DNA of 64,000 nt from Bdellovibrionales bacterium (GTDB taxonomy: Bacteria > Bdellovibrionota > UBA2428): assembly GCA_018266335.1 (NCBI GenBank), contig JAFEAR010000090.1, positions 62,001 through 126,000 on the forward strand, given 5' to 3'. Positions 25,575 to 63,120 of this stretch are shown in pieces. A program made the position numbers and the translations under genes. Under the pieces are notes generated by a model. It was not told where the DNA came from and did no database searches. It was given only the letters and a program-made list of their open reading frames with translations. How positions within the stretch are numbered: position 1 is the stretch's first letter; each line of letters begins with the position of its first letter.

Positions 25575-26078
25575 GCAGACACCACCTTACGCGCGGCAAC
25601 ATTGTCTATTTTCAGAGTGAAAGGGAAGAGCCTTTCACAAAAGCGTCAAAATTTTTGTGAAGCGTATTGACAGCATCTTATCCACAAAAGGCGCTGTAAG
25701 ACGGAAAGACGAATCGCCCAAAACCGCTATAAACGGCATCGGAGTAAGACTTTGGTAGGCCGTGGATTGAGCGAAAAGCCTTACTTCGTCGCATAAGTTA
25801 AAAAAAGGCAAAACAAGCTGAATATGCATAAAAATATTTAAAAACAGACGAAATGCTCGTACTTTAATTATCCACATTAAATTGTGAGTGAAGTGGATAA
25901 CACCTCAAGCCTCAAGAATTACGCGTAATGAAGAAAAGGCATGTGGATAACCTGTGAATAACTTGTGGATGAGCGAACTTTATGCGGAAAATTGCAATTA
26001 TGAATTCCGCCGGTCGATGTCAAAAAACTGTATTAAAGATGCTCCTCTTCGGACCTTTCTTTGGGGGAGATCTTAACC
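25575..26078. other. Candidate chromosomal replication origin (oriC) with DnaA-box cluster
   Basis: A 504-bp gene-free, AT-rich gap directly upstream of a dnaA gene. DnaA boxes of the TTATCCACA type: perfect on the plus strand at 25678-25686 and 25868-25876; perfect on the minus strand at 25942-25950; one-mismatch minus-strand copies at 25892-25900 (TTATCCACT), 25953-25961 (TTATTCACA) and 25964-25972 (TCATCCACA). Five of six lie in 105 bp. An A/T-rich stretch at about 25790-25870 next to the cluster is a candidate unwinding element. Plus-strand boxes are on the left and minus-strand boxes on the right. The same boxes could also serve autoregulation of dnaA. Confidence 0.72.
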
Positions 26079-28942: not shown

Positions 28943-29469
28943 TCGAGAATCGTAAAACGTATCGACTGCCCTTCCGCGCGAAGATTGTCTTTGCTTGCGG
29001 CGATAAGGTTTACGCCGGTAACAGCTCGAATATTTCGGCGGCCGGCATTTTCGTTACTCTCCTAGACAGCGCCCAGATTCCCCGCGAGTCCGAATGCCGC
29101 ACGGTGTTCGGAATCGCTTCGCAAAACTCCCCGCTCGTGCTGAACGCCGTCGTCAAACGCGTCGTGGCGCGCGATCCCAACCCCGAGGTTTTGCCGGGGA
29201 TTGCCTTTAGTTTTATCGATCAGCAACGGGACTTGGCACGGCTGGAAGACTTCATTCAGTCGAGTCGGCAGAATTTTGAGCTGGCCGCCACCATTTTGGC
29301 GAGTGGCGAGCCCGACCTTACCTCGCTACAACCCCTGCTGCAGGACATGCACTTGCCCCCGACTTCGGACCTCGGCGAGCTGCGCTTTCACATTGAACGC
29401 ATTCTCAGTTCGGTTGAGCTCGTCGACGAAAGCAACTCCCTCCTCCCGCCGCGTCCCCCCAAACCCTAA
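28939..29469 (+). CDS. PilZ-domain protein
   Basis: 176 residues starting at GTG 28939 in a GTGA overlap with phoH. 'RKTYRLPFRAKIVFACGDKV' carries the Arg-rich start and 'NSSNISAAGIFVTL' the (D/N)xSxxG core of c-di-GMP-binding PilZ domains; the RxxxR is only partial (RKTYRLPFR). The C-terminal 60 residues are helical and acidic without known match. Together with dnaA and phoH it forms a three-gene translationally coupled set, suggesting c-di-GMP input to that set; this is inference. Confidence 0.75.
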   Translation: MIENRKTYRLPFRAKIVFACGDKVYAGNSSNISAAGIFVTLLDSAQIPRESECRTVFGIASQNSPLVLNAVVKRVVARDPNPEVLPGIAFSFIDQQRDLARLEDFIQSSRQNFELAATILASGEPDLTSLQPLLQDMHLPPTSDLGELRFHIERILSSVELVDESNSLLPPRPPKP

Positions 29470-29476
29470 ATAGATC

Positions 29477-29492
29477 TGGCACAAAAACTGCT
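29477..29492 (+). promoter_or_regulatory. Sigma54-type (-24/-12) promoter A
   Basis: TGGCACAAAAACTGCT has GG at 29478-29479 and GC at 29490-29491 separated by ten bases, the invariant RpoN spacing, with a full TGGCAC -24 element. Transcription should start near 29503, giving a leader of about 60 nt before the small ORF at 29563. A matching promoter lies at 62736-62751 in front of the paralogous ORF. Confidence 0.65.
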
Positions 29493-29538
29493 TAGGCCAA
29501 CCCTAGCATCCACGAGGGAGGCTAAGGTCGGCCTAAGG

Positions 29539-29562
29539 ACGGGCCCCGAAAGGGGAAACCGT
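29539..29562 (+). promoter_or_regulatory. Leader hairpin A with GNRA loop and embedded Shine-Dalgarno
   Basis: ACGG (29539-29542) pairs CCGT (29559-29562) and CCCC (29544-29547) pairs GGGG (29552-29555) around a GAAA tetraloop; AAA forms an internal loop. The Shine-Dalgarno AAGGGG sits in the 3' strand, and the ATG follows the stem directly. An upstream inverted repeat TTAGGCC/GGCCTAA (29492-29498 and 29530-29536) flanks the transcription start. The same architecture is found at 62794-62816 with compensatory changes. Confidence 0.6.
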
Positions 29563-29823
29563 ATGGAACATGTAACCAGCATGATCCAATTGATAAGAGA
29601 AGTGCTAGAAACCGCAGTTCTCCTCGGCAAGTTGTTGACCAACTTGAGACTCCTTTGTGAATGCCTTTTCCACAAAGATTCCAAGCTAATTATACGGCGC
29701 AGCAGCGTTAAGTTCTGCGGCGAAAACTCCGAAGCAATGAGGAATGTCTCCTCGTGCCGATTCCGCAGCTTTTACCGGTGGCTCTGCCCGCTGTGGACGC
29801 TGCGCCGAAATTCTTCCGGATGA
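29563..29823 (+). CDS. Small sigma54-driven ORF A, paralogue of ORF at 62817
   Basis: The frame starts MEHVTSMIQLIREVLETAVL and continues as a leucine-rich amphipathic helix (LLGKLLTNLRLL), a Cys-containing stretch and a basic 'KLIIRRSS'. The paralogue at 62817 aligns over all of this and stops right after the matching IRRSN. Here the stop seems lost, and the frame runs 38 codons further, into the start of the protease gene (29744) in another frame. The functional product is probably the first 48 or so residues, either with a changed C-terminus or as a decayed copy. No database family recognised; membrane-associated peptide or toxin-like peptide are possible guesses. Confidence 0.5.
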   Translation: MEHVTSMIQLIREVLETAVLLGKLLTNLRLLCECLFHKDSKLIIRRSSVKFCGENSEAMRNVSSCRFRSFYRWLCPLWTLRRNSSG

Positions 29824-39811: not shown

Positions 39812-41518
39812 CTAGCTCGGGGGCTTTGCAGAGGGCCCGGAATCATGTAGGTTGAGCGGAATTTCGAATCGCCTGCACGGAGAAGTAGGATAATTGGTAA
39901 TCCAGCAGATTCGAAATCTGCCGCCTTCACGGGCTTGCGAGTTCGAGTCTCGCCTTCTCCGCCAATTCGAATCTTGCTTCATCAGAGCAAGAGTTCGAAG
40001 AGGCTTTACGATTTCATATTCAACGGTTACCCCATTCAAAACGCGGTTCGATAGTAGCTTGTCCAGTAGGAGCTTGCGCTCTTGGGGTGATCTGCGATTC
40101 CACAATGATTCTGCGTTGGTAGCCAGTTCGATAATAGATTCGACCGTCTCGCTTGCGGCAGCGCCGATCGCGAGCTGGGCGTGCTTCATAAGGCCCGCGT
40201 ATTCCAGCTGCTCTTCTTGCAAGCGCTTGCGCTGCCGGTTGTAGGTATCGCGATCGATCTCGCCGGCGTCGTAGCGATCGTAGGCGCGGTCCTCGCGCTC
40301 CTTCGCACCGACGAGCGCAGCCTCATAGCGGTCGAGGTCGTCTTTCACCGCCCGTCGCATCGACACCAATGTTTCGTTCACGGCGCGTATGAGCTCGTCA
40401 CGGAAATCCTCTCGGATCGAGATCTGCCCAACTGCGCCACCGAACTGTTCCATCATCGAATCTTCCGAGAGACTGCGCAGCGTCTTGTGGACGTACTTCC
40501 CGTTGGAGCAGTGATAATACTTGTACGTCTTCACCTCGCCCGTGGACTTGATCTTCTTCGTCTTCGGATCAAAGGTCACGTCACAGCCGCATGCCGGGTC
40601 GGCGCACTCGATCCAGCCATGGCCAAAGAGCGCATCGGGATTCTTACGGCAGGGGATTTTGATACCGAAAGTTTCCTGCACGCGCTGGAAAGTCTTCGCC
40701 GGAATGATGCGCTCGTGCTTTCCGGGGTACTCGACACCATCCCAAATAAAACGGCCGTCGTAGAACACGTTTTTCAATCGACGTTCAATCGAGCCGATGT
40801 GATATTTCTTGATCTGGCCGGACGGAACGAGCCCCTCGGCGATAATGCGCTTTCTCACGTCACGCAACGAAGGCGTGGGGCGCTCCGCGCGCATATCAAA
40901 CTCGCGCTGCACCAGCCGCACAATGGCCGCGCTGGGGTCGGGGACAATGATAGCGCCGCGGCGACGTTCAAATCCCTTTTCGGACTTCAGCTTTTCGTTG
41001 ATGTACCCGCGTGGCGGCGTACAGCCCGGGAACCATCCCATCTCGGCTTTCGCCTGCGTCGACCTGCGGACCTTGGTGCTGAGATCGCGGCTGTAGTTCT
41101 TGTTGATCGCGGCTTGAATATCGCGATTGAAAAACTCGGAGTCGGGGCTGCCACGGTGAAGAATCTTTCCGTCGATGACGTAATGAAGAACGATGCGACC
41201 TTCGCGAGCGAGCTTCTCGTTTTTCTCGGCATCCGTCAGATTGCGCGCTTCGCGATCGTACTTATGAAAAACGACGTGCTGGATGTCTTTTTTGAGAGCC
41301 TTATCGAGCACCTCGCCGTACTTTTTGCGGAGCTCAAAGTCGCGGGCAGTCTCAACGATGGGCACGACCTCAACGAGCTCGAGTCCTAACCGCTTGCAGT
41401 ATTCAACACAGTCGCGCTCTTGGGTGACGCGCGACGTGTTGCCTTCCTGCCCAAGGCTGCTGACCCGTAACGGCGCAATGGCCTTGTTGTTTCGTCCCAT
41501 CCATTCCGTAGCACCCAT
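39812..41518 (-). CDS. Large serine recombinase (integrase) of the element
   Basis: 568 residues as an open frame. N-terminal resolvase domain with the catalytic Ser in 'IAPLRVSSLGQEGNTSR', then a Recombinase domain ('RRSTQAKAEMGWFPGCTPPR', 'IGSIERRLKNVFYDGRFI'), a zinc ribbon (CADPACGCDVTF ... YYHCSNGKYVH) and a coiled coil. The last ~50 residues (WRRRRDSNSQAREGG...) are the antisense translation of the tRNA-Ser gene and flanking host DNA, so the C-terminus is created by integration and changes on excision. ATG 41518 has GGAGGA upstream. Confidence 0.92.
   Translation of the reverse strand: MGATEWMGRNNKAIAPLRVSSLGQEGNTSRVTQERDCVEYCKRLGLELVEVVPIVETARDFELRKKYGEVLDKALKKDIQHVVFHKYDREARNLTDAEKNEKLAREGRIVLHYVIDGKILHRGSPDSEFFNRDIQAAINKNYSRDLSTKVRRSTQAKAEMGWFPGCTPPRGYINEKLKSEKGFERRRGAIIVPDPSAAIVRLVQREFDMRAERPTPSLRDVRKRIIAEGLVPSGQIKKYHIGSIERRLKNVFYDGRFIWDGVEYPGKHERIIPAKTFQRVQETFGIKIPCRKNPDALFGHGWIECADPACGCDVTFDPKTKKIKSTGEVKTYKYYHCSNGKYVHKTLRSLSEDSMMEQFGGAVGQISIREDFRDELIRAVNETLVSMRRAVKDDLDRYEAALVGAKEREDRAYDRYDAGEIDRDTYNRQRKRLQEEQLEYAGLMKHAQLAIGAAASETVESIIELATNAESLWNRRSPQERKLLLDKLLSNRVLNGVTVEYEIVKPLRTLALMKQDSNWRRRRDSNSQAREGGRFRICWITNYPTSPCRRFEIPLNLHDSGPSAKPPS
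39879..39961 (+). tRNA. tRNA-Ser(CGA)
   Basis: Acceptor GGAGAAG (39879-39885) pairs CTTCTCC (39954-39960); discriminator G 39961, then encoded CCA (39962-39964). D-stem GGAT/ATCC, anticodon stem GCAGA/TCTGC with loop TTCGAAA giving anticodon CGA, a 15-nt class II variable arm (GCC/GGC stem), and T-stem GCGAG/CTCGC with TTCGAGT loop. The 3' end abuts the mobile element, whose recombinase gene runs antisense through this gene. Confidence 0.95.
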
Positions 41519-41591
41519 AAGTCCTCCGCTTTGTAAGAGATTTTGACTCGCAACGCCATAAACATCGGGTTCGATAGCGTCTCGCTGTCCC

Positions 41592-41762
41592 CTACCAGTC
41601 GATCAACCCCTTCGCCCGGTCTTCGTTGCGCCACCGGAGGAGCAACTTGATGGCCTCTATAGCCTGCTGCACCTCATCACGCGTGTATTGGGACCTTGGC
41701 TGAGGATCGCTCTGCAAGGGCTGTACTTCTTCGTATTCACGGTCATTTTCATGCGGTCCCAC
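41592..41762 (-). CDS. Small ORF between primase and recombinase
   Basis: 56 codons from GTG 41762, overlapping the 3' end of the primase gene by 14 bp in another frame. The product is acidic then helical ('DEVQQAIEAIKLLLRWRNED') and ends KGLIDW. Reasonable amino-acid composition and tight placement between two same-strand genes support coding, but there is no clear Shine-Dalgarno and no family. Confidence 0.45.
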   Translation of the reverse strand: MGPHENDREYEEVQPLQSDPQPRSQYTRDEVQQAIEAIKLLLRWRNEDRAKGLIDW

Positions 41763-44685
41763 TCATCGGACTCGCCTTCTTTCCATTGCCAGTTTTACTC
41801 GCGCCCTTCCCTGAGCCGGCTTTGGACCGCTCAAAATCTCCCTGAATCCCCCCTGATCCCCTCTGCCGTTTTTCAGCGACCGGGATCAAAACATACAGAT
41901 TTGCGTCCTTTCCTGACTGAGGAGCCACCGCGATCTTGTAACCGTTGTAGATGCGCCCTTGCTGCTTCGAGAGCTGCTTACCGAGGGAGACCTTACGTGA
42001 GGCCTCGTCAGTAAACTGCCCCACTAAAGGGGCCAGGAAATCCGTTTCGCCAAGCCCCAGTATCTCAGCCGTCGTGACTGGCCGGCTCCCAAATTCTTCA
42101 TGCCAAAGATTCACGAGCTCGATCCAAACGGCGCGGAAAGGATCGATGGCCATCTCAACTTTCCCCTGATTCGCCAGAAACCCTTCGAAACCAAGGTAAC
42201 CGAGCAGCGATCTCATCGTGACGGACCAGCTCTCATAGGAGCCGTAAGTCTTGCCAGTCCCGGTAGGTTGGCCAGCGGCTATCCAAGACTGAATCGCGAT
42301 CAGAATCACCTCAAGAAGGTGACGACGGTTTTCTTTCACCCACCTAAGAATTTGTGGATGCCGAAAACTCTTCTCGCTTCTCTCCCACGGACGTTCCATC
42401 TCGGCTTCGATGCGAATCGAAACACACCGCCGATTGAGCTCGAGACTCAGATTCGGATTGTTCCCCGTCATGAGCCACAGAGCCTCGTTCGGCGCCTGGA
42501 CCATCCTACTCACGCCCAAAACACGATCCGTGTATAAGGTCGAGGTAAGGACCGATGCGAGCGAGGGGCTGTGAAGCTTTCCACTGTGAAAGCGCCCCAA
42601 GTTCTCACCCATGTCGTCATCGAGATTGTCGAGAAGCACGATGGGCCGCCCGCCAATGAGCTCCGACAAAAACATCTTCTTGCGCTCGTCTTCGTTACCG
42701 GACAACACGCGCGCAGGAGTTTCCTGCCCTGTCGCTACAACACTCGCGAGTTGCGCCGCGAGGGACTTGCCCGAACCAGGCGTCGCCGCGTTTATCAAAA
42801 GCATGGGCGTCGGACCTGCGATCATTTTACGCAGGGGCGGCTGAAGAAACGCAATCAACATGTGCATCCGATCGAACTCCTCCGCGAACGGAAAATCCGA
42901 CAACAGCTCGAGCATCAAAAAATCAATCCCTGCCCGCGCCTCATCGGCGGAAACTGATTTGATGTCCTCAAAAGGCGATGCCCCAGACGGATAATTCAAA
43001 AAAATCTCGTCTTCCGCGTGATAGCCCGGCGCCACGACTAGCTGGCCGCTTTTACTGAAATAGGGACTCCCGGTGATGGTATTGAGCGAAGGGAGCCGAG
43101 GATCGGGAATCGCGGTCATGTCTCGGGGCACGTAATCCGGTAGGGTCGTCGGAAAAGTTCTCTCGTTCGTCTGCTTGAAGATATCGGCCGAACGAATGAG
43201 TAGCCCCGTCATTTTCACCGGCGCGACCTCGAGAAGGCTGCCGTTTCCGTAGTCGTCGAAGGTCGGTTCAATTACGAAGTTTCCCCGGCGAAAAATTTGA
43301 GCTTTCTGCTCGTTTCGGCGATGAATCACACGCCAGCAATCTTCAATCACCTCCCGCGGCTGACGGCCTGTCACGACGATTTCGGGCAGTCCAGATTCGC
43401 CATGCAATGCTTCGTCAAAATCTTCTCGGCCACTCTTGCGAAAGGTGCTCGCGCAATGCCGATCAACTTCGCCGGGATCGAACGTGGCGAGAAAGTCGCT
43501 AAGACCGCGAGAAGAGCAGTGATCGTGCTTACAGTGCCAACCCGGCCAACCGTCCTCTCTCGATTCAAAAACAACGGTCGATCCGTCGCCATCATTCCCG
43601 CTGGAATGCTCATCGCGCCAAGGGCATTTGACCGAATGAATGTGGTCCTTCACAGGGCGAACGTAGCTGCCATTTACTTTGCATAGCTCGACGATATCGA
43701 GCGTCGGCAGATTGCCCCTATATTGGGCCCAATCTTTTGCGACCGATCTCGTTGAACTCTCGCTTCCGGTAGCCGTAGCCTTTTTTGGGGCTACTTTTGT
43801 GCTCGGCCGCGATGCTGCTTCCTCGATCGTTTTCTGTTCATCTATTTCGGCGGCGTACTTTTCCAAAATATCGCTAGGCTCCGGCCACTGCTCAGGGGCG
43901 AAAAACCTTGCCGTCCGGTGCGGGCGTTCCTTGGTGTTCCCTCCCTTAACGGCCGCGGTCCCGTAGATTTTCCAAACGCGACCAATATCAAAGGTGTTCT
44001 CGTCAACCTTAGCGTGCTCGGTTCCGTGTTTTCTTTGAAAATACCGGAGAAGGAGCGCGAAGGAATGTTTCTTGTCATTCAATTCGTCGCTGTTGGGGTA
44101 GCTGATCGTCGGAATCAACAAGTGCAATCCGTTGCCTGAGAAAGCCTCGGCGGGATGAATGCCTTTGCTCAGGAGGTCCGCTCGTATGGCCTGACAGACA
44201 TCAAACGCGCTTTCGATTTCTAAGTCACTGGCTGCGATTCTCGGCGTTGACCGAATGGTGTCGATATCAATCGGAAACAGCGACCGCGAAATCACGTCTT
44301 GAGCTTTTGCGCCCTCTCCGGCCGACAGGCAGTTCGGTTTAAGCGCGTGAAGAAGATCAGGCCTCCTCGCGTTGATGCCGACGAAAAGCGCTTTCTTGCC
44401 GTGATGGTGTTCACAATCACGTACGAAGGCATCGATGTTATCGTAGAAACCAACCTTGGTTAGCTTGTCGTCGTAGTATTGGGCTGACTTGTCTCCGATT
44501 GCCCGTAGCTCAAGACAGCCGCCGGCAGATAAGATCCGCCGAGCGAGCATGGTGATTTCTCTTGAACGAAACTTAGGTTTCGGAAATTCGGTGTTCGCGT
44601 TCGCGAGCAACGTCTTAAGCTGAGACTTCGCCACGATGCCGTGTGTTTCCGCTGGTATCACGGAAGAGTTCTTATTGTTTGTCAT
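41749..44685 (-). CDS. Element replication protein: AEP-like primase, zinc finger, AAA helicase
   Basis: 978 residues. The N-terminal ~270 residues look like an archaeo-eukaryotic primase ('LFPIDIDTIRSTPR' with DxD, then 'AFSGNGLHLLIPTISYP' with the SGxGxHLxxP signature). A CHC2-type zinc segment follows ('VKCPWRDEHSSGNDGDGS', 'WHCKHDHC'). The C-terminal third is an ATPase with Walker A 'NAATPGSGKSLAAQLA', Walker B 'RPIVLLDNLDDDMGENL' and sensor-like 'LWLMTGNNPNLSLELNRRC'. This primase-helicase layout is typical of autonomously replicating plasmids, P4-like satellites and phages. The Lys/Gly-rich tail probably binds DNA. Confidence 0.85.
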   Translation of the reverse strand: MTNNKNSSVIPAETHGIVAKSQLKTLLANANTEFPKPKFRSREITMLARRILSAGGCLELRAIGDKSAQYYDDKLTKVGFYDNIDAFVRDCEHHHGKKALFVGINARRPDLLHALKPNCLSAGEGAKAQDVISRSLFPIDIDTIRSTPRIAASDLEIESAFDVCQAIRADLLSKGIHPAEAFSGNGLHLLIPTISYPNSDELNDKKHSFALLLRYFQRKHGTEHAKVDENTFDIGRVWKIYGTAAVKGGNTKERPHRTARFFAPEQWPEPSDILEKYAAEIDEQKTIEEAASRPSTKVAPKKATATGSESSTRSVAKDWAQYRGNLPTLDIVELCKVNGSYVRPVKDHIHSVKCPWRDEHSSGNDGDGSTVVFESREDGWPGWHCKHDHCSSRGLSDFLATFDPGEVDRHCASTFRKSGREDFDEALHGESGLPEIVVTGRQPREVIEDCWRVIHRRNEQKAQIFRRGNFVIEPTFDDYGNGSLLEVAPVKMTGLLIRSADIFKQTNERTFPTTLPDYVPRDMTAIPDPRLPSLNTITGSPYFSKSGQLVVAPGYHAEDEIFLNYPSGASPFEDIKSVSADEARAGIDFLMLELLSDFPFAEEFDRMHMLIAFLQPPLRKMIAGPTPMLLINAATPGSGKSLAAQLASVVATGQETPARVLSGNEDERKKMFLSELIGGRPIVLLDNLDDDMGENLGRFHSGKLHSPSLASVLTSTLYTDRVLGVSRMVQAPNEALWLMTGNNPNLSLELNRRCVSIRIEAEMERPWERSEKSFRHPQILRWVKENRRHLLEVILIAIQSWIAAGQPTGTGKTYGSYESWSVTMRSLLGYLGFEGFLANQGKVEMAIDPFRAVWIELVNLWHEEFGSRPVTTAEILGLGETDFLAPLVGQFTDEASRKVSLGKQLSKQQGRIYNGYKIAVAPQSGKDANLYVLIPVAEKRQRGSGGIQGDFERSKAGSGKGASKTGNGKKASPMSGTA

Positions 44686-44700
44686 GGTGACTCCAAGGGT

Positions 44701-45069
44701 CTAGCGCGAGTAATGCCGAAATCTCTTCCGGCCACCCCGACAAGCTTGTTTTTCTCGAATTAACAAATCGACGGCGCGAGGATCGTAGGCTTCGACACCC
44801 CATTCGCGTAGAACTTTTATGCAACCTTCTAGGGTGCGCTTATTGATCCACGGAGGGTTGTTGTCATTAAAGAAGAAGACTTGCTCCGTGTAGATAATCC
44901 GGGCGTCAGGATCGATGGCAACTACGCCTCCTTCTTTTGGCTTAAGCCAAATCGCATTATAGTCTCGATTGAATAAAATCTGACTTCCGTTCATACATAT
45001 CCAGATGCCGTAAGGGAGTCGGCACCGCATAATCTCGGCTTCGGAGATCCTATTCCGCCGCTCGCTCAT
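44701..45069 (-). CDS. Element protein of unknown function
   Basis: 122 residues, MSERRNRISEAEIMRC..., with a strand-rich centre ('VVAIDPDARIIYTEQVFFF') and a basic C-terminus (CRGGRKRFRHYSR). Not recognised. It follows the 96-residue-frame gene with a 4-bp overlap and precedes the primase by 15 bp, so it belongs to the same replication transcript. Confidence 0.55.
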   Translation of the reverse strand: MSERRNRISEAEIMRCRLPYGIWICMNGSQILFNRDYNAIWLKPKEGGVVAIDPDARIIYTEQVFFFNDNNPPWINKRTLEGCIKVLREWGVEAYDPRAVDLLIREKQACRGGRKRFRHYSR

Positions 45070-45284
45070 TTGCCGCCTCCGCTATTGAATTCGACGGCAA
45101 GGATCTCGCGCACCCGACCAGCGAGGCCGCGATCACCGAGGGCCTTCAAAAGCCGCCCGCGAAGGTATTTCCAACTCGGACTAGCGCCAAGTTCCTGCTC
45201 GACCGGATCGAGAATGTAGCTGCGATAATGATCAATCGCCTCGAGGAGCACGCACTCCAGGCGGTGGACTTCAGGTGATTTCAT
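45066..45284 (-). CDS. Small element protein of unknown function
   Basis: 72 residues starting MKSPEVHRLECVLL at 45284, where AAGGAGGC sits five bases upstream; a longer frame to 45356 is less likely. Helical and charged ('AIDHYRSYILDPVEQELGA'). Overlaps the next gene by 4 bp. No family recognised. Confidence 0.55.
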   Translation of the reverse strand: MKSPEVHRLECVLLEAIDHYRSYILDPVEQELGASPSWKYLRGRLLKALGDRGLAGRVREILAVEFNSGGGK

Positions 45285-45411
45285 TTTTGCCTCCTTGCCA
45301 AAAGCCGGAGGACTTGAGGGAACCAATCCGCCCATTCGCTCCAGCCATGCGCTCAAAAGAGCAAAGTGAAACGGGCAGGCCTATAAGTAAGAAAAAAGGT
45401 TAATTTAACTT

Positions 45412-46035
45412 CTAAGGGCGTTGGCCGGGACGATACTGCCCCGATCCCTCGAGAGCAGGTAGACCTTTGGTCCCAAGTGAACGCAATTGCTGGATCACTG
45501 CGCCAGAGGATTTTGCGCCGAAGATTTCTTTTATGACCCGAATTATCTCAAGCTTCTTCTTTCGCGGAGTCGTCCATTCGATTTTGTATCGCTTGCCGTT
45601 GTGCACGTAAGTTACGCGCTGGAAATGCTGCCGCGTTGAGGGGCCTTCAAGGGTCTTCCCCTCCTCTTCCATGAGCCGTTCGTAGCATTCTTTCATGCTA
45701 CGATACGCGCGACGCTTTAGAGGCTTCACCTCAAGCCCAAACTGTTGAAGTGCTTCCCGCATTTTAATCTCAATTTTTTTCCGCCCAAGAAGAATTTTTT
45801 TTGCCGCCTGCTCGCGCGATCGATTGTCACGTCCCTCCAGAGTCCATTTTTGTAAATTAACCGATTGCTCAAGGAGGAATCGCAAAAAATCGCGTTCTGC
45901 AGCCGACAACCGTAATGCGCTTTTTGCAGATTTCATCTTTTGCAAAACGTGGTCCGCTAGCGTCCACGCTTCCAATGGTGGAAGAGTAAATCGCTTATAG
46001 GCTTCTAATTTCGCAGTAAATTCGCTTTGGTCCAT
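45412..46035 (-). CDS. Basic element protein of unknown function
   Basis: About 207 residues starting MDQSEFTAKLEAYKRF at 46035 with GGAGGG upstream. Rich in Lys, Arg and Glu, mostly helical, with a C-terminal region 'RVTYVHNGKRYKIEWTTPRK' that looks strand-like and basic. A DNA-binding role is a guess from charge. Divergent from the GNAT-like gene. Confidence 0.55.
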   Translation of the reverse strand: MDQSEFTAKLEAYKRFTLPPLEAWTLADHVLQKMKSAKSALRLSAAERDFLRFLLEQSVNLQKWTLEGRDNRSREQAAKKILLGRKKIEIKMREALQQFGLEVKPLKRRAYRSMKECYERLMEEEGKTLEGPSTRQHFQRVTYVHNGKRYKIEWTTPRKKKLEIIRVIKEIFGAKSSGAVIQQLRSLGTKGLPALEGSGQYRPGQRP

Positions 46036-46123
46036 CCCCAACCCTCCATTCCACGGCATTGCTCCTAAGCCAGAGTCCCCCGGCGCGTTGCGAGCAGTCA
46101 AGACTCATGGGATAAGGCCTGCC

Positions 46124-46714
46124 ATGGCCGAATCTACGCTGCCGACCGGGTATACGATCCGCCCCATTTCAACCGCGGAATTCACGCCTCTTTACGAAAC
46201 CCACGGCCCGCGCCTTTTTAGCGATCTCATGGTCCTCAAAATGATGAAGGTCCTCGGCGAGCGCGAATTGACCGTAGCTCATGGGTTCCGCGATATGGTG
46301 TCCACGCGATACCGATTGAACCTCGGCGTCTTTCACAAAGATGAGTTTGTCGGATGGAGCTGGGGCTATCAGACTTCGCCGCTCGAATACTACATGGAGA
46401 ACTCGGCCGTGTTCCCCGAACATCGCCGCAAAGGATTGTATGCGGCCCTCGTGCGTGAAGTCATCCACACGACGACGGAGCACGGCTTTGCGGCCGTCTA
46501 TTCGCTCCACCATCTCGTGAACAACCCGGTCATCATCCCGAAACTCCAAGCCGGATTCATTATGACGGGCTTCAACGTGATGGACCTCTACGGCACGCTC
46601 GTGCGACTAGACTATTTTGCGAATCCGATGCGTCACCGAATCATGGAGGTGCGCTGTGGATATCGCAAACCTGACGCCGAGATTCTCTCCTTATTTGGAC
46701 AAGACGACCTGTAA
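46124..46714 (+). CDS. GNAT-family acetyltransferase-like protein
   Basis: About 196 residues from MAESTLPTGYTIRPIS. The Gly/Arg acetyl-CoA loop is 'VFPEHRRKGLYAALVREV' (R/QxxGxG/A form) and the preceding strand 'LGVFHKDEFVGWSWGY' fits the GNAT fold. The acceptor is unknown. Inside the element, so it may be cargo. Start at 46124 chosen for the family-like N-terminus. Confidence 0.75.
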   Translation: MAESTLPTGYTIRPISTAEFTPLYETHGPRLFSDLMVLKMMKVLGERELTVAHGFRDMVSTRYRLNLGVFHKDEFVGWSWGYQTSPLEYYMENSAVFPEHRRKGLYAALVREVIHTTTEHGFAAVYSLHHLVNNPVIIPKLQAGFIMTGFNVMDLYGTLVRLDYFANPMRHRIMEVRCGYRKPDAEILSLFGQDDL

Positions 46715-46732
46715 TAATCCATTGAGAGCGGC

Positions 46733-46921
46733 CTAGCTGGCAGAATCTACGAACGCTTGCATGAGCTCCTCAACGACTTTGGATGCAGGCAAAGTACCGC
46801 AGGCCTTTTGAAACGATTTGTAGAGCTTTTTGGATAAATAAAGCGATACCTTTCCTCGATCAGACTCTTCTTTCAGCAGTTTCTCACGGATGGCTTTGGC
46901 ATCAATTTTGGTAGCACTCAT
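46733..46921 (-). CDS. Ribbon-helix-helix-like small protein
   Basis: 62 residues. 'KVSLYLSKKLYKSFQKACG' (strand and helix 1) then 'LPASKVVEELMQAFVDSA' fits an RHH/CopG fold as found in plasmid partition and antitoxin proteins. No Shine-Dalgarno is seen. The 88 bp to the divergent resolvase gene hold several GTAT-type half-sites (46924-46970) that could be its operators. Confidence 0.6.
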   Translation of the reverse strand: MSATKIDAKAIREKLLKEESDRGKVSLYLSKKLYKSFQKACGTLPASKVVEELMQAFVDSAS

Positions 46922-47008
46922 ATATGTATACTAATCGGTATTTTGAGGCGTATCTTTATACTCCTATTTTATCTTGACTTTAATAACCCAATGCATCATG
47001 ATTAATGT

Positions 47009-47686
47009 ATGACTCCGGGCTCTCAAGCCCAAGGACGGAGCACAGCCCAGGTACGGGCCTTGATTTATGCGCGAGTTTCAACGGCGCATCACGACCAAAA
47101 ACCCGAGGTTCAGCTCGACGAGCTTCGCCGGTACTGCGCAGCCCGTGGGTGGACACCTGCCGAAGAGGTCGTCGATCACGGCTTCTCGGGCGGCACCGAC
47201 AAACGTCCCGGACTCAGACACTTACTCATGCAAGTACGCGCCCGGCGCGTCGATGTAGTAGTCGTCTCAAAGCTCGACCGCCTTGCCAGAAGCTTGCGCC
47301 ACCTCGTGGCCCTCCTCGATGAGCTCTCGGCGCTCGACGTCCAATTCGTCAGCCTCCACGATCAAATCGACATGCGTACCGCTGGTGGCAGACTCATGGT
47401 CCATATCGTGGCCGCGTTCGCGGAGTTCGAGCGAGCACTTATCAGAGAGCGAACGGTCGCTGGCCTGGCTCATGCAAGGGCGAAGGGCAAAAGACTCGGA
47501 CGGCCACGCCGCCGCAATGACGCCGCCATCCTCCATTTACGCGCAAAAGGGCTCTCGTACACCGCGATCAGCCGTGAAATCGGCTGCGATCGAAGCGCCG
47601 TGTACCGCGCTCTAAAAGCTGTGGCGAAAACGTCTCCAAAAACTGCGTCGCAAGTCTTCGAAAAATCACGCGCGGATGAAAGGTAA
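47009..47686 (+). CDS. Resolvase/invertase-type serine recombinase
   Basis: 225 residues. Catalytic Ser in 'ALIYARVSTAHHDQKPEVQL', 'VVVSKLDRLARSLRHLVAL', 'GRLMVHIVAAFAEFERALIR' and a C-terminal HTH ('GLSYTAISREIGCDRSAVYR'). Small resolvases of this type resolve multimers or invert DNA. Distinct from the large recombinase at the left end. A TTGACT -35-like element is at 46974-46979; there is no clear Shine-Dalgarno. Confidence 0.93.
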   Translation: MTPGSQAQGRSTAQVRALIYARVSTAHHDQKPEVQLDELRRYCAARGWTPAEEVVDHGFSGGTDKRPGLRHLLMQVRARRVDVVVVSKLDRLARSLRHLVALLDELSALDVQFVSLHDQIDMRTAGGRLMVHIVAAFAEFERALIRERTVAGLAHARAKGKRLGRPRRRNDAAILHLRAKGLSYTAISREIGCDRSAVYRALKAVAKTSPKTASQVFEKSRADER

Positions 47687-47692
47687 TTCCCT

Positions 47693-47899
47693 ATGTCGAA
47701 AACGGACGATTTCAAGCCATCGGTGATTGATCTCAGAGCCATCGCCTGGAAGCTCGCAGCTCTTGCGCAATTGCTCAAGCGCTACGACTCCGATGATGCC
47801 CTGCCGGGTAAAGAAATTCTGGGCCTCGGTATCCTCCTAGAGGATTTGGTTAAGGAATTTGAGGTCGCTCTCGGTGAGGACCGGCTCGATGTCCGGTAG
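47693..47899 (+). CDS. Small helical protein of unknown function
   Basis: 68 residues, 'MSKTDDFKPSVIDLRAIAWK'..., helical, acidic at the C-terminus. 6 bp after the resolvase, so probably cotranscribed. Not recognised. Confidence 0.5.
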   Translation: MSKTDDFKPSVIDLRAIAWKLAALAQLLKRYDSDDALPGKEILGLGILLEDLVKEFEVALGEDRLDVR

Positions 47900-47990
47900 C
47901 TCGGACACAAAATCACTCACACCGGATTTAGTCGTCTGCATCGGATTTTGACTCACGAGGTCATCTCGAGCGCCGATACTCAAAGAGGAT

Positions 47991-48305
47991 ATGCGTCTAA
48001 AGGAAGAGCTAAGAATCCTACTCAAAGAGCGCGACCTGACGGCCGCTCAACTCGCGCGCGCCTCGGGCGTCTCACCCAAGACGATTTCGGATTGGCTTGC
48101 CGGAACGCCACCTCGAAACATTGACCAGGTCCGCAAGGTGGCGCGCGTCTTCGGCGTTACAGTCGATCGGCTATGCTTTGGCGAAACTCTCACTGAGAAG
48201 CCGTCACAAGAAGCCACTCAGCCCACCAGTGACCTTGAAACGCTCCTGGGCGATGGATGGATCACGGGGCTCTTTGAAGTCAGATTGCGGAGGGTGAAAA
48301 AGTGA
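47991..48305 (+). CDS. XRE-family HTH regulator
   Basis: 104 residues. 'LLKERDLTAAQLARASGVS' then 'PKTISDWLAGTPPRNIDQVR' is a Cro/CI-type HTH; 'VARVFGVTVDRLCFGE' completes it. The C-terminal 30 residues are not recognised. The last codon and stop overlap the GTG start of the PLD nuclease gene, so the two are coupled. A likely candidate for the element's repressor or switch protein. Confidence 0.88.
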   Translation: MRLKEELRILLKERDLTAAQLARASGVSPKTISDWLAGTPPRNIDQVRKVARVFGVTVDRLCFGETLTEKPSQEATQPTSDLETLLGDGWITGLFEVRLRRVKK

Positions 48306-48850
48306 AGAGCTTATCGCTTATCCTCGTCGTACCAAGCGCGCTGGCTAACGCCACCGAGGCAGTGTACTTCTCGCCCTCGGGCGGCTGTGAAGAGCGTGTC
48401 GTAAGATTCATCAACGAAACCCATAAGACTCTCGACGTCGCTATATATTCTCTCAACAACACTGCCATCCTCCAAGCGCTTTCGACTGCCAAGACGCGCG
48501 GAGTAAAGATTCGCATACTACTCGACCGGGTTCAGGCCAGCGGAAATCGAGCTGTGACGCTGGGCTTGAGGCGCAACGGGTTTGACGTGCGCATCCACAG
48601 TAAAAACAAAATTCAACACAACAAATTCGCAGTGAGCGACGGAACGCGGATCGAAACAGGATCGTTCAACTGGACTAATCCCGCAGAGCACAGCAACGAA
48701 GAAAATTGTCTCTTTACCGATGATCCAACAACATCGAAGGTTTTTGAACGTCAATTCAAAGATCATCTCTGGGTAGTTAACACTGAAAAGCGCAGCGAAA
48801 GAGCGTTTTTACGCCTTATGAAAAAACCTCTAAAGGGGGAGAGAAAATGA
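48302..48850 (+). CDS. Exported phospholipase D-family nuclease (Nuc-like)
   Basis: 182 residues from GTG 48302. A signal peptide (MKSLSLILVVPSALANA) precedes a single HKD domain: 'HNKFAVSDGTRIETGSFNWT' (HxK, x4, D, then GSxNW). One-domain Nuc/EDTA-resistant nucleases dimerise to form the active site and are common on conjugative plasmids. It acts in the periplasm if exported. Coupled to XRE upstream and to a small membrane protein downstream (ATGA). Confidence 0.88.
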   Translation: MKSLSLILVVPSALANATEAVYFSPSGGCEERVVRFINETHKTLDVAIYSLNNTAILQALSTAKTRGVKIRILLDRVQASGNRAVTLGLRRNGFDVRIHSKNKIQHNKFAVSDGTRIETGSFNWTNPAEHSNEENCLFTDDPTTSKVFERQFKDHLWVVNTEKRSERAFLRLMKKPLKGERK

Positions 48851-49065
48851 CTATTGTTATCGTCGTAATTTTGAGCAGCATTATTGTCTACATCGACGCC
48901 AAAAAGCTTGGCGTAAAAAAGGGACTTGTTCCTGACGGACTCGATGCCGGTCCCTTCGGTTGGGCACTCGGCGTCTTATTCTTATGGATTATCGTGCTTC
49001 CCATGTATCTGTTTAAACGCAGCAAGTACGTGGCAGCTCAAAGCGGCAAAACACTGAACTCATAA
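48847..49065 (+). CDS. Small membrane protein
   Basis: 72 residues with two hydrophobic segments ('IVIVVILSSIIVYI' and 'GWALGVLFLWIIVLPMYLF'), joined by a Gly/Asp/Lys-rich loop, and a basic end. Overlaps the nuclease stop. Might help in immunity or secretion of the nuclease; unproven. No family recognised. Confidence 0.55.
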   Translation: MTIVIVVILSSIIVYIDAKKLGVKKGLVPDGLDAGPFGWALGVLFLWIIVLPMYLFKRSKYVAAQSGKTLNS

Positions 49066-49139
49066 TGACATGAACTTTGCTCTTCGTTTTTAGAGGAATT
49101 TAAAGCGCCTTTCAGGTCGCAATTTTCGAAAGGAGTCCA

Positions 49140-49736
49140 ATGAGACCTTTGGTATTAAGGTTTTTGTTCTTCTTTGGTCTAATTTGGCTGTGGGTCTATT
49201 CCGATTCAAGCCCCCACAACAACGGAGGACCATCGGAAAAAGTGGGTGCGCCATCATCTGAGGAAATTCTTGGCTATCAGGACATCTCATTCGGAATCGA
49301 CGTGAAGAAACTAGCCAGCATGAAGAAATGCTCACTCTCAAAATTTAAAGACGCATCCTCGGCGAGCCTCACCACGTACGGCTGCCAAAACTTCCGATTC
49401 GGGGATCAGCCGGTGGCTGCCCTTTTCACCTTTGCGGACAACGAGCTTGTCCGCATGGAATTTATTCTGGGAGAGGTGACTTCTGGAGAGTCGATTCGAC
49501 TTTATTCGAAGGCGCTCACGGATAAGTTTGGGCAACCTTACAAGCTCAATCAATCAGAGTTAGAAGCATTTGATGCAGGAAAAATCGATCAGGCGTCAGT
49601 TTCCTGGAACACAGATCAAGTCGCCTTAAAGGTAACTCGTATCGAAAATCACGTGATGGCGACGATCAGCTATTCGGACCTCTTTATTGAGCGAAAGATA
49701 GCAAGTGTCGCAAGGAAAGTGGGAGAGGGATTGTAA
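49140..49736 (+). CDS. Membrane-anchored or secreted protein of unknown function
   Basis: 198 residues with an N-terminal hydrophobic anchor (LRFLFFFGLIWLWVY), AAAGGAG upstream and a strand-rich mature domain with two Cys ('KCSLSKFKDASSASLTTYGC'). No family recognised. 1 bp before the next gene, which has a similar strand-rich layout, so the two may be distant duplicates. Confidence 0.5.
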   Translation: MRPLVLRFLFFFGLIWLWVYSDSSPHNNGGPSEKVGAPSSEEILGYQDISFGIDVKKLASMKKCSLSKFKDASSASLTTYGCQNFRFGDQPVAALFTFADNELVRMEFILGEVTSGESIRLYSKALTDKFGQPYKLNQSELEAFDAGKIDQASVSWNTDQVALKVTRIENHVMATISYSDLFIERKIASVARKVGEGL

Positions 49737-49737
49737 T

Positions 49738-50442
49738 ATGAATTCCGCCAGCTTCGTTCTATTGGGACTCTTCACCGCGACGGCCGCCTTCGCCGACGAG
49801 AACCTCCCTATCATCGAGTCATTGAAGGGCTTGAGGATGGGGATGAGCCTCGCAGCATTCGTTAAGAGGCCCCCCTGCGAAATCGTCAAACTTAGAATGG
49901 ATGACATTCACCACTCCGGGAAGCCGACCGAGGACTATGCTACCGCAATCTGTCGCCCTGCCGGAAAATTCGATGTCTACCACTTCGTCGATTTTAAATT
50001 TTCGAATGAAAAGTTACACGAGGTAACGGCGAACATGTTCTTGAAAGGCACAGCGCTTGGCAATGATGGCTTGGGGTGCATTCCGGCGGAGCTCAATGAG
50101 TACAACGAAGCAGTGGTGAAAACAATCCAGGCGGGGTACACGCGCCTCGGCCATAAAAAGGACTACTACCCCCAAACGGCCACATGTCTCCACGTAAACC
50201 GCCTTGTGGCGAAGCCATCGAAAATGAGGTTCGAGGATTTTAAGGGAGAACTCTTCTCTAACCTTCAACCTAACGCAGCACTCAATGAGGGAGTTCGCGA
50301 GGAATCAGACAAGTTTTGGAAGCACCAACACGATACGGCGTTCTGGTTTTTCAGCACGAACGTACCGGGGGTATCCGGCGATATTTTCTACAATGGCGGG
50401 GAGCCGCAGATGATTACAGTAACGCTTAGGAAAAAGCCGTGA
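49738..50442 (+). CDS. Secreted protein of unknown function
   Basis: About 234 residues starting MNSASFVLLGLFTATAAFADEN with a signal peptide. The mature part begins 'IIESLKGLRMGMSLAAFVKR', like the 'GIDVKKLASMKK' segment of its upstream neighbour, where a small-domain G-M-x-x-x-x-F pattern is typical of SmpA/BamE-like or DUF-type repeats. Four Cys. Not recognised further. GTG... frame upstream (49705) overlaps the previous gene and is rejected. Confidence 0.5.
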   Translation: MNSASFVLLGLFTATAAFADENLPIIESLKGLRMGMSLAAFVKRPPCEIVKLRMDDIHHSGKPTEDYATAICRPAGKFDVYHFVDFKFSNEKLHEVTANMFLKGTALGNDGLGCIPAELNEYNEAVVKTIQAGYTRLGHKKDYYPQTATCLHVNRLVAKPSKMRFEDFKGELFSNLQPNAALNEGVREESDKFWKHQHDTAFWFFSTNVPGVSGDIFYNGGEPQMITVTLRKKP

Positions 50443-50598
50443 CTAGCGCTTCGTGGAATTCTCAATCGCAGCTTTGAGCCGCGCCACCGCTTCTGCCAGC
50501 CGCCGTTCGGCGTCGAGCACCGCGCGGAGCGCTGCTTGAACTGTGGGGTCGGGCTGTTTGGTGGTGAGCGCCTTTTCTACTGTGTCATCGAGGTTCAT
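50443..50598 (-). CDS. Small ORF downstream of TerL
   Basis: 51 codons (MNLDDTVEKALTTKQPDPT...), starting ATG 50598 and ending with TAG at 50443. The product is a single acidic/basic amphipathic helix ('ALRAVLDAERRLAEAVARLK'). It lies 37 bp downstream of TerL and abuts the stop of the convergent secreted-protein gene. No known family, but coding composition and placement are convincing. Confidence 0.55.
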   Translation of the reverse strand: MNLDDTVEKALTTKQPDPTVQAALRAVLDAERRLAEAVARLKAAIENSTKR

Positions 50599-50635
50599 GA
50601 CCTAATTCTACAAGCCCTAGTAAAAAGAGCCAGCA

Positions 50636-52036
50636 CTATCTCCACCATTCGCGCCCGACTCTCCCACGAAAGCCGACAATAGGTGCGGAGACAAGCCTCG
50701 GCCCACCGTGGAGCCGAATGAGGGCCTGGCTCATGGCATCCACACAGTCGTCGTGGGCGCCGTTCGGGAATGCTGCACACTCCTCGACGAAATACTGCAC
50801 CCAGGAAGCTTGAGCCAGATCGGGCAACCACACGTTCCCGGCCTCAATCTCGGGGCTTGCAGCACTCGCGCGCGCTTCCTTACTCCCCTGTGGCTCAACC
50901 GGGATGAGTCCGCTTACCTCGTGCTTGAGCATTGCGATTACAGCCGGACCGTTGGCCTTGTCCTCGACAAGCTTCGTGCGCGCCGTGGGATATCGCGCCG
51001 AGAGCGATTTGATCGCACGCACCGTGGTCGGAAAATCCATGCGCTCGCGAATTTGATCGATGAGGTATTTGTCGGCGCCGATCTTGCCCCAAACCTGACC
51101 CACCACGAAGTCGGCCGTCTTCGTATCCTTAAACGAGAGGTCCCAACTCTGAATGATTTGGTCAAAACGCTGCGGAAGGTTCGTGTAAAACTTCCACCAG
51201 CCGCGTTTGAAGATGTTGCCCTCCTCGGCTGATGGGTGCTGTTGATAAAGAGCTTCCCACATCCGCGACCCGATCGCTGCGCGAATTTTTGAAAGGGCCT
51301 CGACATCGTAGCGCTCCGGGCAAAGCGCCTCGCCCGGAACGCGCTCCAGTGCATCGCCGTCTTCGGCCAGAGCCGGAAGCCTGATCTCTTCCCAATCGTC
51401 ATCGTGTTCGTTGAGTAGGTAGCCGGCCAGATCACGTTCATGCCAACGCGTCATGAGAATCACGATCGAGGCACCAGGCTCGGCGCGCGTGTAGAGGGTC
51501 GAATTGAACCAATCGATATGGTTTTGGCGGGTAGTCTCGGACGATGCCTCCTCCCAGTTCTTCACCGGATCATCGATAATGATAAGGTGGCCGCCGCGCC
51601 CGGTGATGGGGCCGCCGATGCCGGCCGTTATCATTCCGCCACCCTGAACCGTGTTCCACTTGTCCGAGGCAAGCGAATCCGAGGCAAGCTCCACTCCGAG
51701 CGCGCTGGCGTTCTCTTGTAGGAAGTTTCTAACGCCGCGTCCCCAAGTCGCGGCGAATGTGGCCTCATAAGAGGCCAGAATGACGTTGCGGTTTGGCCAA
51801 AGCGATAAGAACCAAGCTGGCGAATAGAGGGAGGTGAGCCAGCTTTTACCGTGACGCGGCGGCATGGAGATCACCAGCCGTGCGCCGCCCTTAGCGATGC
51901 CCTGGGCAACCCTGCGGTCGAGGAGCCTAATGTGGGGGTAGCGCCGGAAGCGCCCTTTCGTCAGGTGCTCCGCCATGCGTGCTGGGCTCAGGCGCCACCG
52001 ATCGTTGAAAAGTAGAGCCTCAGCAGCCTTCTTCAT
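50636..52036 (-). CDS. Terminase large subunit (DNA packaging ATPase-nuclease)
   Basis: 466 residues. Walker A 'VISMPPRHGKSWLTSL', Walker B 'GGHLIIIDDPVKNWEEAS', coupling motif 'ASIVILMTRWHERDLAG', and a C-terminal RNaseH-like nuclease ('IQSWDLSFKDTKTADFVVG' with the first Asp, 'TKLVEDKANGPAVI' with a second acidic residue and 'PNGAHDDCVDAMSQAL' with the third). All catalytic parts appear intact, so it is not an obvious pseudogene, yet no portal or capsid gene follows. Confidence 0.93.
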   Translation of the reverse strand: MKKAAEALLFNDRWRLSPARMAEHLTKGRFRRYPHIRLLDRRVAQGIAKGGARLVISMPPRHGKSWLTSLYSPAWFLSLWPNRNVILASYEATFAATWGRGVRNFLQENASALGVELASDSLASDKWNTVQGGGMITAGIGGPITGRGGHLIIIDDPVKNWEEASSETTRQNHIDWFNSTLYTRAEPGASIVILMTRWHERDLAGYLLNEHDDDWEEIRLPALAEDGDALERVPGEALCPERYDVEALSKIRAAIGSRMWEALYQQHPSAEEGNIFKRGWWKFYTNLPQRFDQIIQSWDLSFKDTKTADFVVGQVWGKIGADKYLIDQIRERMDFPTTVRAIKSLSARYPTARTKLVEDKANGPAVIAMLKHEVSGLIPVEPQGSKEARASAASPEIEAGNVWLPDLAQASWVQYFVEECAAFPNGAHDDCVDAMSQALIRLHGGPRLVSAPIVGFRGRVGREWWR

Positions 52037-62735: not shown

Positions 62736-62751
62736 TGGTGCACAAAATGCA
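62736..62751 (+). promoter_or_regulatory. Sigma54-type (-24/-12) promoter B
   Basis: TGGTGCACAAAATGCA has GG at 62737-62738 and GC at 62749-62750 with ten bases between, matching RpoN spacing. The sequence around it (TCTGG...TGCA) closely matches promoter A at 29477. The predicted start near 62762 gives a leader of about 55 nt. Confidence 0.65.
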
Positions 62752-62793
62752 TTGGCCGGCTTGCACCCAGGGATGGGTACAGGCCGGCCAAGG

Positions 62794-62816
62794 ACGAGCC
62801 CCGTAAGGAGGCCCGT
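62794..62816 (+). promoter_or_regulatory. Leader hairpin B with GNRA loop and embedded Shine-Dalgarno
   Basis: ACG (62794-62796) pairs CGT (62814-62816), GCC (62798-62800) pairs GGC (62810-62812) and CC (62801-62802) pairs GG (62807-62808) with bulged A 62809, around a GTAA tetraloop. The Shine-Dalgarno AAGGAGG is in the loop and 3' strand. The ATG follows directly, as in hairpin A. A large inverted repeat TTGGCCGGC/GCCGGCCAA lies upstream (62752-62760 and 62783-62791). Confidence 0.6.
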
Positions 62817-62954
62817 ATGGAATATGAAGCGATATTCCAATTTCTAAGGGACCTAGCGACAACGTTAGGTCTCCTCGACAGATTGTTGAGAATCTTGAGT
62901 CGTACTCGCCAAAGGAAATCGAGACGCCAAATTAAAATTCGGCGATCGAACTAA
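62817..62954 (+). CDS. Small sigma54-driven ORF B, 45-residue basic amphipathic peptide
   Basis: Starts MEYEAIFQFLRDL, continues 'ATTLGLLDRLLRILS' and ends with a Lys/Arg-rich stretch finishing IRRSN, then TAA. The helix with leucines on one face plus a basic tail suggests membrane or nucleic-acid binding. It aligns along its length with ORF A at 29563 (ME..IQLIREVLETAVLLGKLLTNL versus ME..FQFLRDLATTLGLLDRLLRIL). Good Shine-Dalgarno AAGGAGG. Too short for usual gene calling; I know no family for it. Confidence 0.6.
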   Translation: MEYEAIFQFLRDLATTLGLLDRLLRILSRTRQRKSRRQIKIRRSN

Positions 62955-62994
62955 CATTAGGTAATTCTTAAAAAAAAGAAGCACGGCAGCTTCT

Positions 62995-63025
62995 GCCCCG
63001 ACCCATCCCTGGGGGCCTTTTTGCG
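62995..63025 (+). terminator. Rho-independent terminator after small ORF B
   Basis: GCCCC (62995-62999) pairs GGGGC (63012-63016) with a loop containing ACCCATCCCT, followed by CCTTTTT. A second hairpin, GAAGC/GCTTC, precedes it. ACCCATCCCTGGG (63001-63013), part of the terminator, is perfectly complementary over 13 nt to CCCAGGGATGGGT (62766-62778) at the 5' end of the same predicted transcript. Confidence 0.65.
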
Positions 63026-63120
63026 GGAGCTATATTTATATTGATACGGCGCGTTATTTTGCTTATAGATCCCCTCGAACTCAAGGCCGAGTTCGCCACA
63101 CTCCACGAAAGGACCTCGTT

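Follow-up and report, generated by a model that had tools for sequence, protein, structure and literature searches.

A candidate family of sigma54-driven peptide mRNAs with paired ends in Bdellovibrionota

A stretch of 64,000 nt from a Bdellovibrionales contig (the window) holds two related modules, A and B, which are dispersed members of one family in a Bdellovibrionota genome (Table 1). We propose, with moderate confidence, that B is transcribed under sigma54 into an mRNA of about 260 nt, which would be folded shut around a helical peptide, in the manner of hok and aapA. Comparison of the copies supports the family itself, its inner fold, the pairing of the RNA ends, the succession of Shine-Dalgarno sequence, ATG and open reading frame (ORF), and selection on the peptide in one relative, G007. 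The sequence-only reading that first singled out this module had missed the end pairing, the extent of the family and a palindrome that surrounds the start.

Table 1 Features of modules A and B, in window coordinates
Feature	Position	Strand	Basis and remarks
Module, copy B	62736-63022	+	Sequence, fold, blastn
sigma54-like -24/-12 site TGG-N10-GC, copy B	62736-62750	+	Sequence; 9 of 12 positions
P0 palindrome (arms)	62752-62760 and 62783-62791; span 62752-62791	none	Sequence and folds; arms covary across copies
P1, 5′ arm	62763-62778	+	Exact 13-nt complement of 3′ arm; duplex -33.1 kcal/mol, 0/1000 shuffles
Hairpin H1	62794-62816	+	Holds Shine-Dalgarno AAGGAGG (62805-62811); fold; 84.4% of cells paired over five copies
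Gene for 45-residue peptide, copy B	62817-62954	+	ATG to stop; homologous peptides in C-F
Hairpin H3, within ORF	62848-62873	+	5 of 10 pairs changed on both sides, five copies
Hairpin H4, within ORF	62874-62890	+	4 of 8 aligned pairs changed on both sides; helix in fold
CTTGAGTC motif, P2 partner of P0 right arm	62894-62901	+	Motif read in copies
P1, 3′ arm	63001-63017	+	Reverse complement of RNA 5′ end
T5 run, putative RNA end	63018-63022	+	Sequence
Module, copy A	29477-29758	+	sigma54-like site 29477-29491; ATG 29563; weak 3′ arm 29748-29756; frame open beyond module

Copies and their distribution

Modules A and B are homologous (blastn against the window and 84 loci, 70% identity over 182 nt, E 2e-15), as the sequence-only reading had held, and its suggestion of a repeated genomic family is borne out by four further copies, C-F, all in G007. 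A covariance model built from A and B (R2) matched C (L093, E 3e-11), D (L094, E 3e-8) and, weakly, E (L095, E 0.8). Searching with the pattern of the P0 arms returned C, D and the new copy F (L101), three forward matches against none in the control. A peptide profile made from A-E then also recovered F (E 3e-12); since C, D and E were already contained in this profile, only F is an independent recovery. We count the arrival at six copies by independent routes in favour of a peptide-mRNA family. Over an alignment of A, B, C, D and F (A6, from which E was omitted), C, D and F share 70–78% identity, A and B 63%, and members of different groups 55–61%.

G007 is one of four genomes of its class that were searched, and no convincing copy was found in the other three, one of which is 1.2 Mb. 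When 368 genomes from the phylum were scanned, four were matched by R2 at E ≤ 0.05, three by model R3 at E ≤ 0.1 and five by peptide profile A7 at E ≤ 0.01; in these scans, whose stricter filters may miss weak family members, convincing copies were confined to G007. The remaining hits of R2 (L096-L098) and R3 (L117-L118) were judged to be chance on reading their sequences, as were those of A7 (L123-L126), for which a renewed search with R3 gave no match. All four pattern hits in viral contigs (L001-L004) were taken as chance matches, the other module features being absent there, and a DNA search of five near genomes returned short chance pieces (three of eight loci inspected). At the Rfam gathering threshold one tRNA was the sole match in the window, and L093, L094, L095 and L101 gave none. 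A CsrA sponge was considered for B, as PrrB_RsmZ was its best match by E-value at a loose Rfam threshold, and was rejected at 18.6 bits against a gathering score of 44.

The copies in G007 adjoin unrelated genes. C neighbours enolase; D, ABC transporter genes and a PIF1-like helicase; E, a hexapeptide-repeat protein and Tex; and F, a sigma54-activating response regulator (L115 5220-6566) and an SRP54-type GTPase (L115 7099-8577), the latter possibly FlhF. The response regulator could be an activator of F. Module A is preceded (26061-29469) by genes for a DnaA-like protein, PhoH/PIN and a small, PilZ-sized unknown protein, an order conserved in two relatives (L005, L006) that retain these genes and do not have the module. 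A PaiB neighbour, sought in four relatives by a search that had no positive control, was found in none. The window has the look of a Bdellovibrionota chromosome: its PhoH shares 77% identity with that of one metagenome-assembled genome, which bears the name Bacteriovoracaceae, and 75% with that of another. Identity to the PhoH of L017 is 63%, and the title of that record as a Streptomyces griseus MAG is probably wrong.

The spread of several copies among unrelated genes, their inverted repeats at both ends and the lack of module A after its upstream genes in L005 and L006 are what a MITE-like small mobile element could leave, with P1 and P0 being DNA ends and not RNA helices. Against such an element, the end sequences vary among copies and match within each copy, and the longest flanking direct repeat is at most 5 nt in A, B, C and E and a G+C-rich 7 nt in D and F. 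Judged by sequence, the shared terminal repeats and target-site duplication of a MITE appear to be missing, and we regard this explanation as scarcely probable.

Inner hairpins and overall fold

The helices P0, H1, H3 and H4 have 88.9% of their cells paired over A, B, C, D and F, and 15 of their 40 pairs carry changes on both sides, which none of 500 shuffles reached, a level of covariation that is overstated by the relatedness of the rows and by a structure partly drawn from the same rows. Pairing fell to 26–55% when partners were slid by one to three columns. Copy E was dropped from this set because its H3 region differs, and it has no matching H1 fold. The Shine-Dalgarno sequence lies within H1 in the five aligned copies and not in E. 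H1 is the hairpin for which compensatory changes between A and B had been reported; we found no pair changed on both sides there, the double changes between these two copies being located in H2 (one) and H3 (three). H1 does covary once C, D and F are added to A and B.

Folding of B (62762-63027) gave a z-score of -6.8, with none of 200 shuffles as good, and the whole-RNA folds of the six copies ranged from -3.3 to -8.0, with none of 100 shuffles better in each. Copy A has both the weakest fold and the weakest end pairing. The opposite strand folds about equally well. Thus, fold energy leaves the strand undecided, and our assignment to the plus strand rests on the Shine-Dalgarno sequence, the ORF and the promoter.

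These comparable folds, together with T-runs beside P0 on the minus strand (5 nt in A and D, 4 in B and C and 3 in F, each 2-4 nt past the stem), would suit a functional minus-strand RNA with P0 as its terminator, either with the plus-strand ORF secondary or with the minus-strand RNA as an antitoxin. We think this very unlikely: a scan of all six copies for minus-strand sigma70-like promoters found none that exceeded shuffles, E has no such T-run, and the Shine-Dalgarno sequence and ORF are on the plus strand.

Predicted pairing of the RNA ends

In B, positions 62766-62778 are the exact reverse complement of 63001-63013; by expectation the window would contain 0.06 matches to this pattern, which was drawn after the repeat was noticed. 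The 5′ arm of P1 starts at the RNA start predicted from the sigma54 site, and the 3′ arm stops right before the T5 run; a T5 run directly behind the 3′ arm occurs in this one of the six copies. The T-run had been described as part of a terminator; it is present, and the segment before it also complements the RNA 5′ end.

Across the family, about 16 nt at the start of the RNA are predicted to pair, strongly in B-F and weakly in A, with a segment whose position in B-F is around ATG+176 to +195. We compared the pairing of 22 nt from GC+12 with the region ATG+60 to +300 against 1000 shuffles, and obtained z-scores (with the number of shuffles as good) of -6.5 (0) for B, -3.7 (2) for C, -7.3 (0) for D, -3.9 (1) for E, -4.3 (0) for F and -1.8 (54) for A. 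When arms were swapped among copies, B, C, D and E paired best with their own partners, while the 5′ arm of F preferred the 3′ region of D and that of A the 3′ regions of other copies. When the 5′ window was slid, the predicted start gave the strongest pairing in C, E and F and came within 1 kcal/mol of the optimum in D; B favoured +35 (-35.0) and then -5 (-34.3), and A favoured +15. The 5′ end of A pairs more strongly about 84 nt past the ATG than at the expected place. A local 5′ hairpin of -4.3 to -7.7 kcal/mol is predicted in all six copies.

The peptide

A Shine-Dalgarno sequence and ATG are found in all six copies. The peptides have 45 (B), 46 (C), 55 (D), 32 (E) and 50 (F) residues. ORF A (29563-29820) continues through 86 codons without meeting a stop inside the module and overlaps an ORF in another frame from 29744, possibly through decay or reuse of this copy. 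It had been aligned with the 45-residue ORF of B up to IRRS; the peptides are indeed homologous, and ORF A runs on past that point.

Over about 40 codons, dN and dS were 0.21 and 0.60 for D/F, 0.35 and 1.00 for C/D, and 0.43 and 3.18 for C/F, the last dS being near saturation. At the resulting dN/dS of 0.14–0.35, purifying selection acts on the peptides of C, D and F, and neither the broken frame nor the lost hairpin named beforehand as grounds for refutation occurs in these copies. For A and B (about 32 codons; dN 0.49, dS 0.55) dN/dS is about 0.9, and constraint on the peptide was not detected. Thus, the dN/dS comparison proposed by the sequence-only reading favours a constrained peptide in C, D and F and not in the A/B pair. 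Its picture of promoter, fold and peptide being kept together is supported in part, by C-F, with exceptions in A (no stop), D (no TGG) and E (no matching H1 fold, different H3, weak palindrome), and the lack of double changes in H1 between A and B also counts against it.

The B peptide is predicted from its single sequence to be one helix (pLDDT 95.8, weak evidence at such a short length). The best-window helical moment was exceeded by 12 of 2000 shuffles for B, 176 for E and 143 for F, and hydrophobicity is moderate, with a mean of 0.33–0.70 in the best 18 residues of the six copies. Arginine-rich, polybasic tails end the peptides of B, C, D and F and exceed those of most type I toxins in length; E has just KRPKP, and A none inside the module. 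The combination of such tails with conserved hairpins in one RNA could indicate a regulator that binds the hairpin of its own mRNA through the tail and controls it. Since E and A retain parts of the RNA with a minimal tail or none, we give little credence to this role.

Among 5.8 billion proteins the sole relative was P0002, identical to the E peptide, and peptide B alone as a query in the protein search gave none. NCBIfam and Pfam searches with all six peptides at E up to 5 gave no match to a known toxin or other curated family; PA1414_fam for B and Dishevelled for F (both E 1.1) were under the cut-offs.

A peptide may not be the main product at all. The module could produce a sigma54-controlled regulatory RNA, whose closed fold stabilises it and whose loops meet targets, with the ORF secondary (dual-function) or a remnant. 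Consistent with this, fold and end pairing persist where the frame does not, A having no stop in the module and an A/B dN/dS near 1, and E keeps the CTTGAGTC motif past its stop codon. There is also a precedent in PA1414/SicX, an annotated small protein gene that acts as an RNA according to an excerpt of PMC10247376. The Shine-Dalgarno sequence and ATG in six of six copies and the purifying selection among C, D and F speak for the peptide, and the copy with the open frame, A, is the weakest of the six in fold and end pairing. We consider a regulatory RNA possible, if on the unlikely side.

The sigma54-like promoter

TGG-N10-GC precedes both window modules at the same spacing, as had been noted. 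The site thus has what would be the -24 GG and -12 GC of a sigma54 promoter, 10 nt apart, and places the predicted RNA start of B at about 62762-62763, some 12 nt past the -12 GC. On its own, the motif is found 215 times in the window, where 178 occurrences are expected, and none of 100 shuffles reached the observed count; it is so common that a single site means little by itself. Across the family the exact motif precedes four of the six copies (A, B, C and F). The best sigma54-like 16-mer between -150 and -11 lies 79–86 nt upstream of the ATG in A, B, C, E and F, and matches 9 to 11 of 12 positions. In E it has GT in place of GC. In D the corresponding place only ties for best (7/12) and lacks the -24 TGG. 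A gene with a sigma54 DNA-binding domain was found in all four relatives.

The palindrome around the start

In A, B, C, D and F the arms of P0 measure 7–13 bp, and the palindrome stretches from about -11 to about +27; in E it is weak (GGCGA/TCGCC only). The left arm would lie outside a sigma54 transcript, yet the arms covary. P0 could be a terminator of the minus strand, a hairpin of read-through RNA, or a site at which nascent RNA pairs with the melted promoter. An operator for a protein is less likely, as arm spacing varies among copies and the arms covary. The right arm can also pair with CUUGAGUC to form a putative helix P2, which is weakly supported by the alignment: 91.4% of cells are paired and no pair is doubly changed. 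The CTTGAGTC motif differs by one or two letters in A and F.

A more specific and, to us, doubtful version of the proposed mRNA adds a switch at the start. The family would comprise sigma54-driven, hok-like peptide mRNAs of a little-sampled Bdellovibrionota lineage, in which the segment at about +14 to +27 has two alternative partners: CUUGAGUC, in the closed form, or the bases that immediately precede the start (P0). The P0 alternative can involve read-through RNA, antisense RNA or melted promoter DNA. If so, this segment would report transcription start or feed back on its own promoter.

Proposed mechanism and comparison with known systems

For the preferred reading, a locked peptide mRNA, we infer a start site, a translational lock, a trigger and an action on membranes as follows. 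The sigma54 promoter would fire B and start the RNA about 12 nt past the -12 GC; the first 16 nt or so would form the small local hairpin and later pair with the finished 3′ end. Inside this P1 clamp H1 would hide the Shine-Dalgarno sequence, with the ORF folded into H3 and H4, until an event such as 3′ trimming or refolding triggers translation. The 45-residue product would most likely be a membrane-acting helix. The unit would thereby act like a hok or aapA type I toxin mRNA, with sigma54 setting the time of synthesis. In the hok mRNA the 5′ and 3′ ends pair.

We propose this action as a locked toxin mRNA because the parts match the description of the Helicobacter pylori aapA mRNA. Excerpts of PMC6733600 and PMC8309996 describe that mRNA as stable, closed by long-distance pairing of its 5′ and 3′ ends and with hairpins that mask the Shine-Dalgarno sequence, and its peptide as a membrane helix with a basic C-terminus. 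As with aapA/IsoA, to the extent of these excerpts, there are multiple copies, a small helical peptide, a 5′-3′ closed mRNA and a masked Shine-Dalgarno sequence, predicted here; unlike aapA/IsoA, the present family has another peptide and RNA, a sigma54-like promoter and no supported antisense RNA. The predicted local 5′ hairpin resembles the metastable 5′ hairpin that leads to an inert mRNA in hok/Sok of plasmid R1 (PMC6733600, in excerpt), although the hok hairpin itself, as excerpted, leaves the Shine-Dalgarno sequence unmasked and the peptides here match no Pfam or NCBIfam toxin. Similarity to tisB/IstR-1 lies in an amphiphilic membrane helix and a structured, transcriptionally induced mRNA (PMC8309996, in excerpt), with SOS control in tisB against a sigma54-like site here and, again, no NCBIfam or Pfam match for the peptide. 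A small ORF was likewise considered for SicX (PA1414) and merRNA, two structured small RNAs of bacteria (excerpts of PMC3627812 and PMC10247376). The match of B to the PA1414 family is not significant (E 1.1), and merRNA, as excerpted, carries a c-di-GMP riboswitch, whereas a tRNA was the sole Rfam match in the window.

The predicted peptides of B-F agree with the type I pattern of fewer than 60 residues in an amphipathic or hydrophobic helix; A, open for 86 codons, exceeds this size. The predicted end pairing and masked Shine-Dalgarno sequence likewise agree with an mRNA made inert by its structure. An antisense antitoxin RNA is not supported so far. Since toxicity is a prediction and no antisense promoter rises above shuffles, we do not call the family a toxin-antitoxin system. 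Several results count against the locked mRNA: the end pairing of A is matched by 54 of 1000 shuffles and A/B dN/dS is about 0.9; D lacks the TGG, E has GT for GC and no minus-strand promoter exceeds shuffles; the antisense strand folds similarly, no known toxin family is matched, hydrophobicity is moderate and the polybasic tails are long.

Literature searches on toxin-antitoxin systems or small RNAs with sigma54 in Bdellovibrio and Bdellovibrionota returned nothing describing this family, and searches on sigma54/RpoN with type I toxins returned no end-locked toxic-peptide mRNA under sigma54 control. Few bacteria are known to have toxic-peptide mRNAs whose own ends pair to lock them. If confirmed, the family would connect a post-transcriptional lock with a sigma factor that depends on activators, in a phylum with predatory members, and its six natural variants could be used to test the RNA folding pathway.

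Other features of the window

The window also contains a prophage-like stretch (39812-52036), with a serine-recombinase-type gene (39812-41518, minus strand) and a terminase large subunit (50636-52036, minus strand). A tRNA-Ser (CGA) gene lies inside the recombinase frame on the opposite strand (39879-39964), and a weak R2 match falls within the stretch at 45348-45464 (E 0.046).
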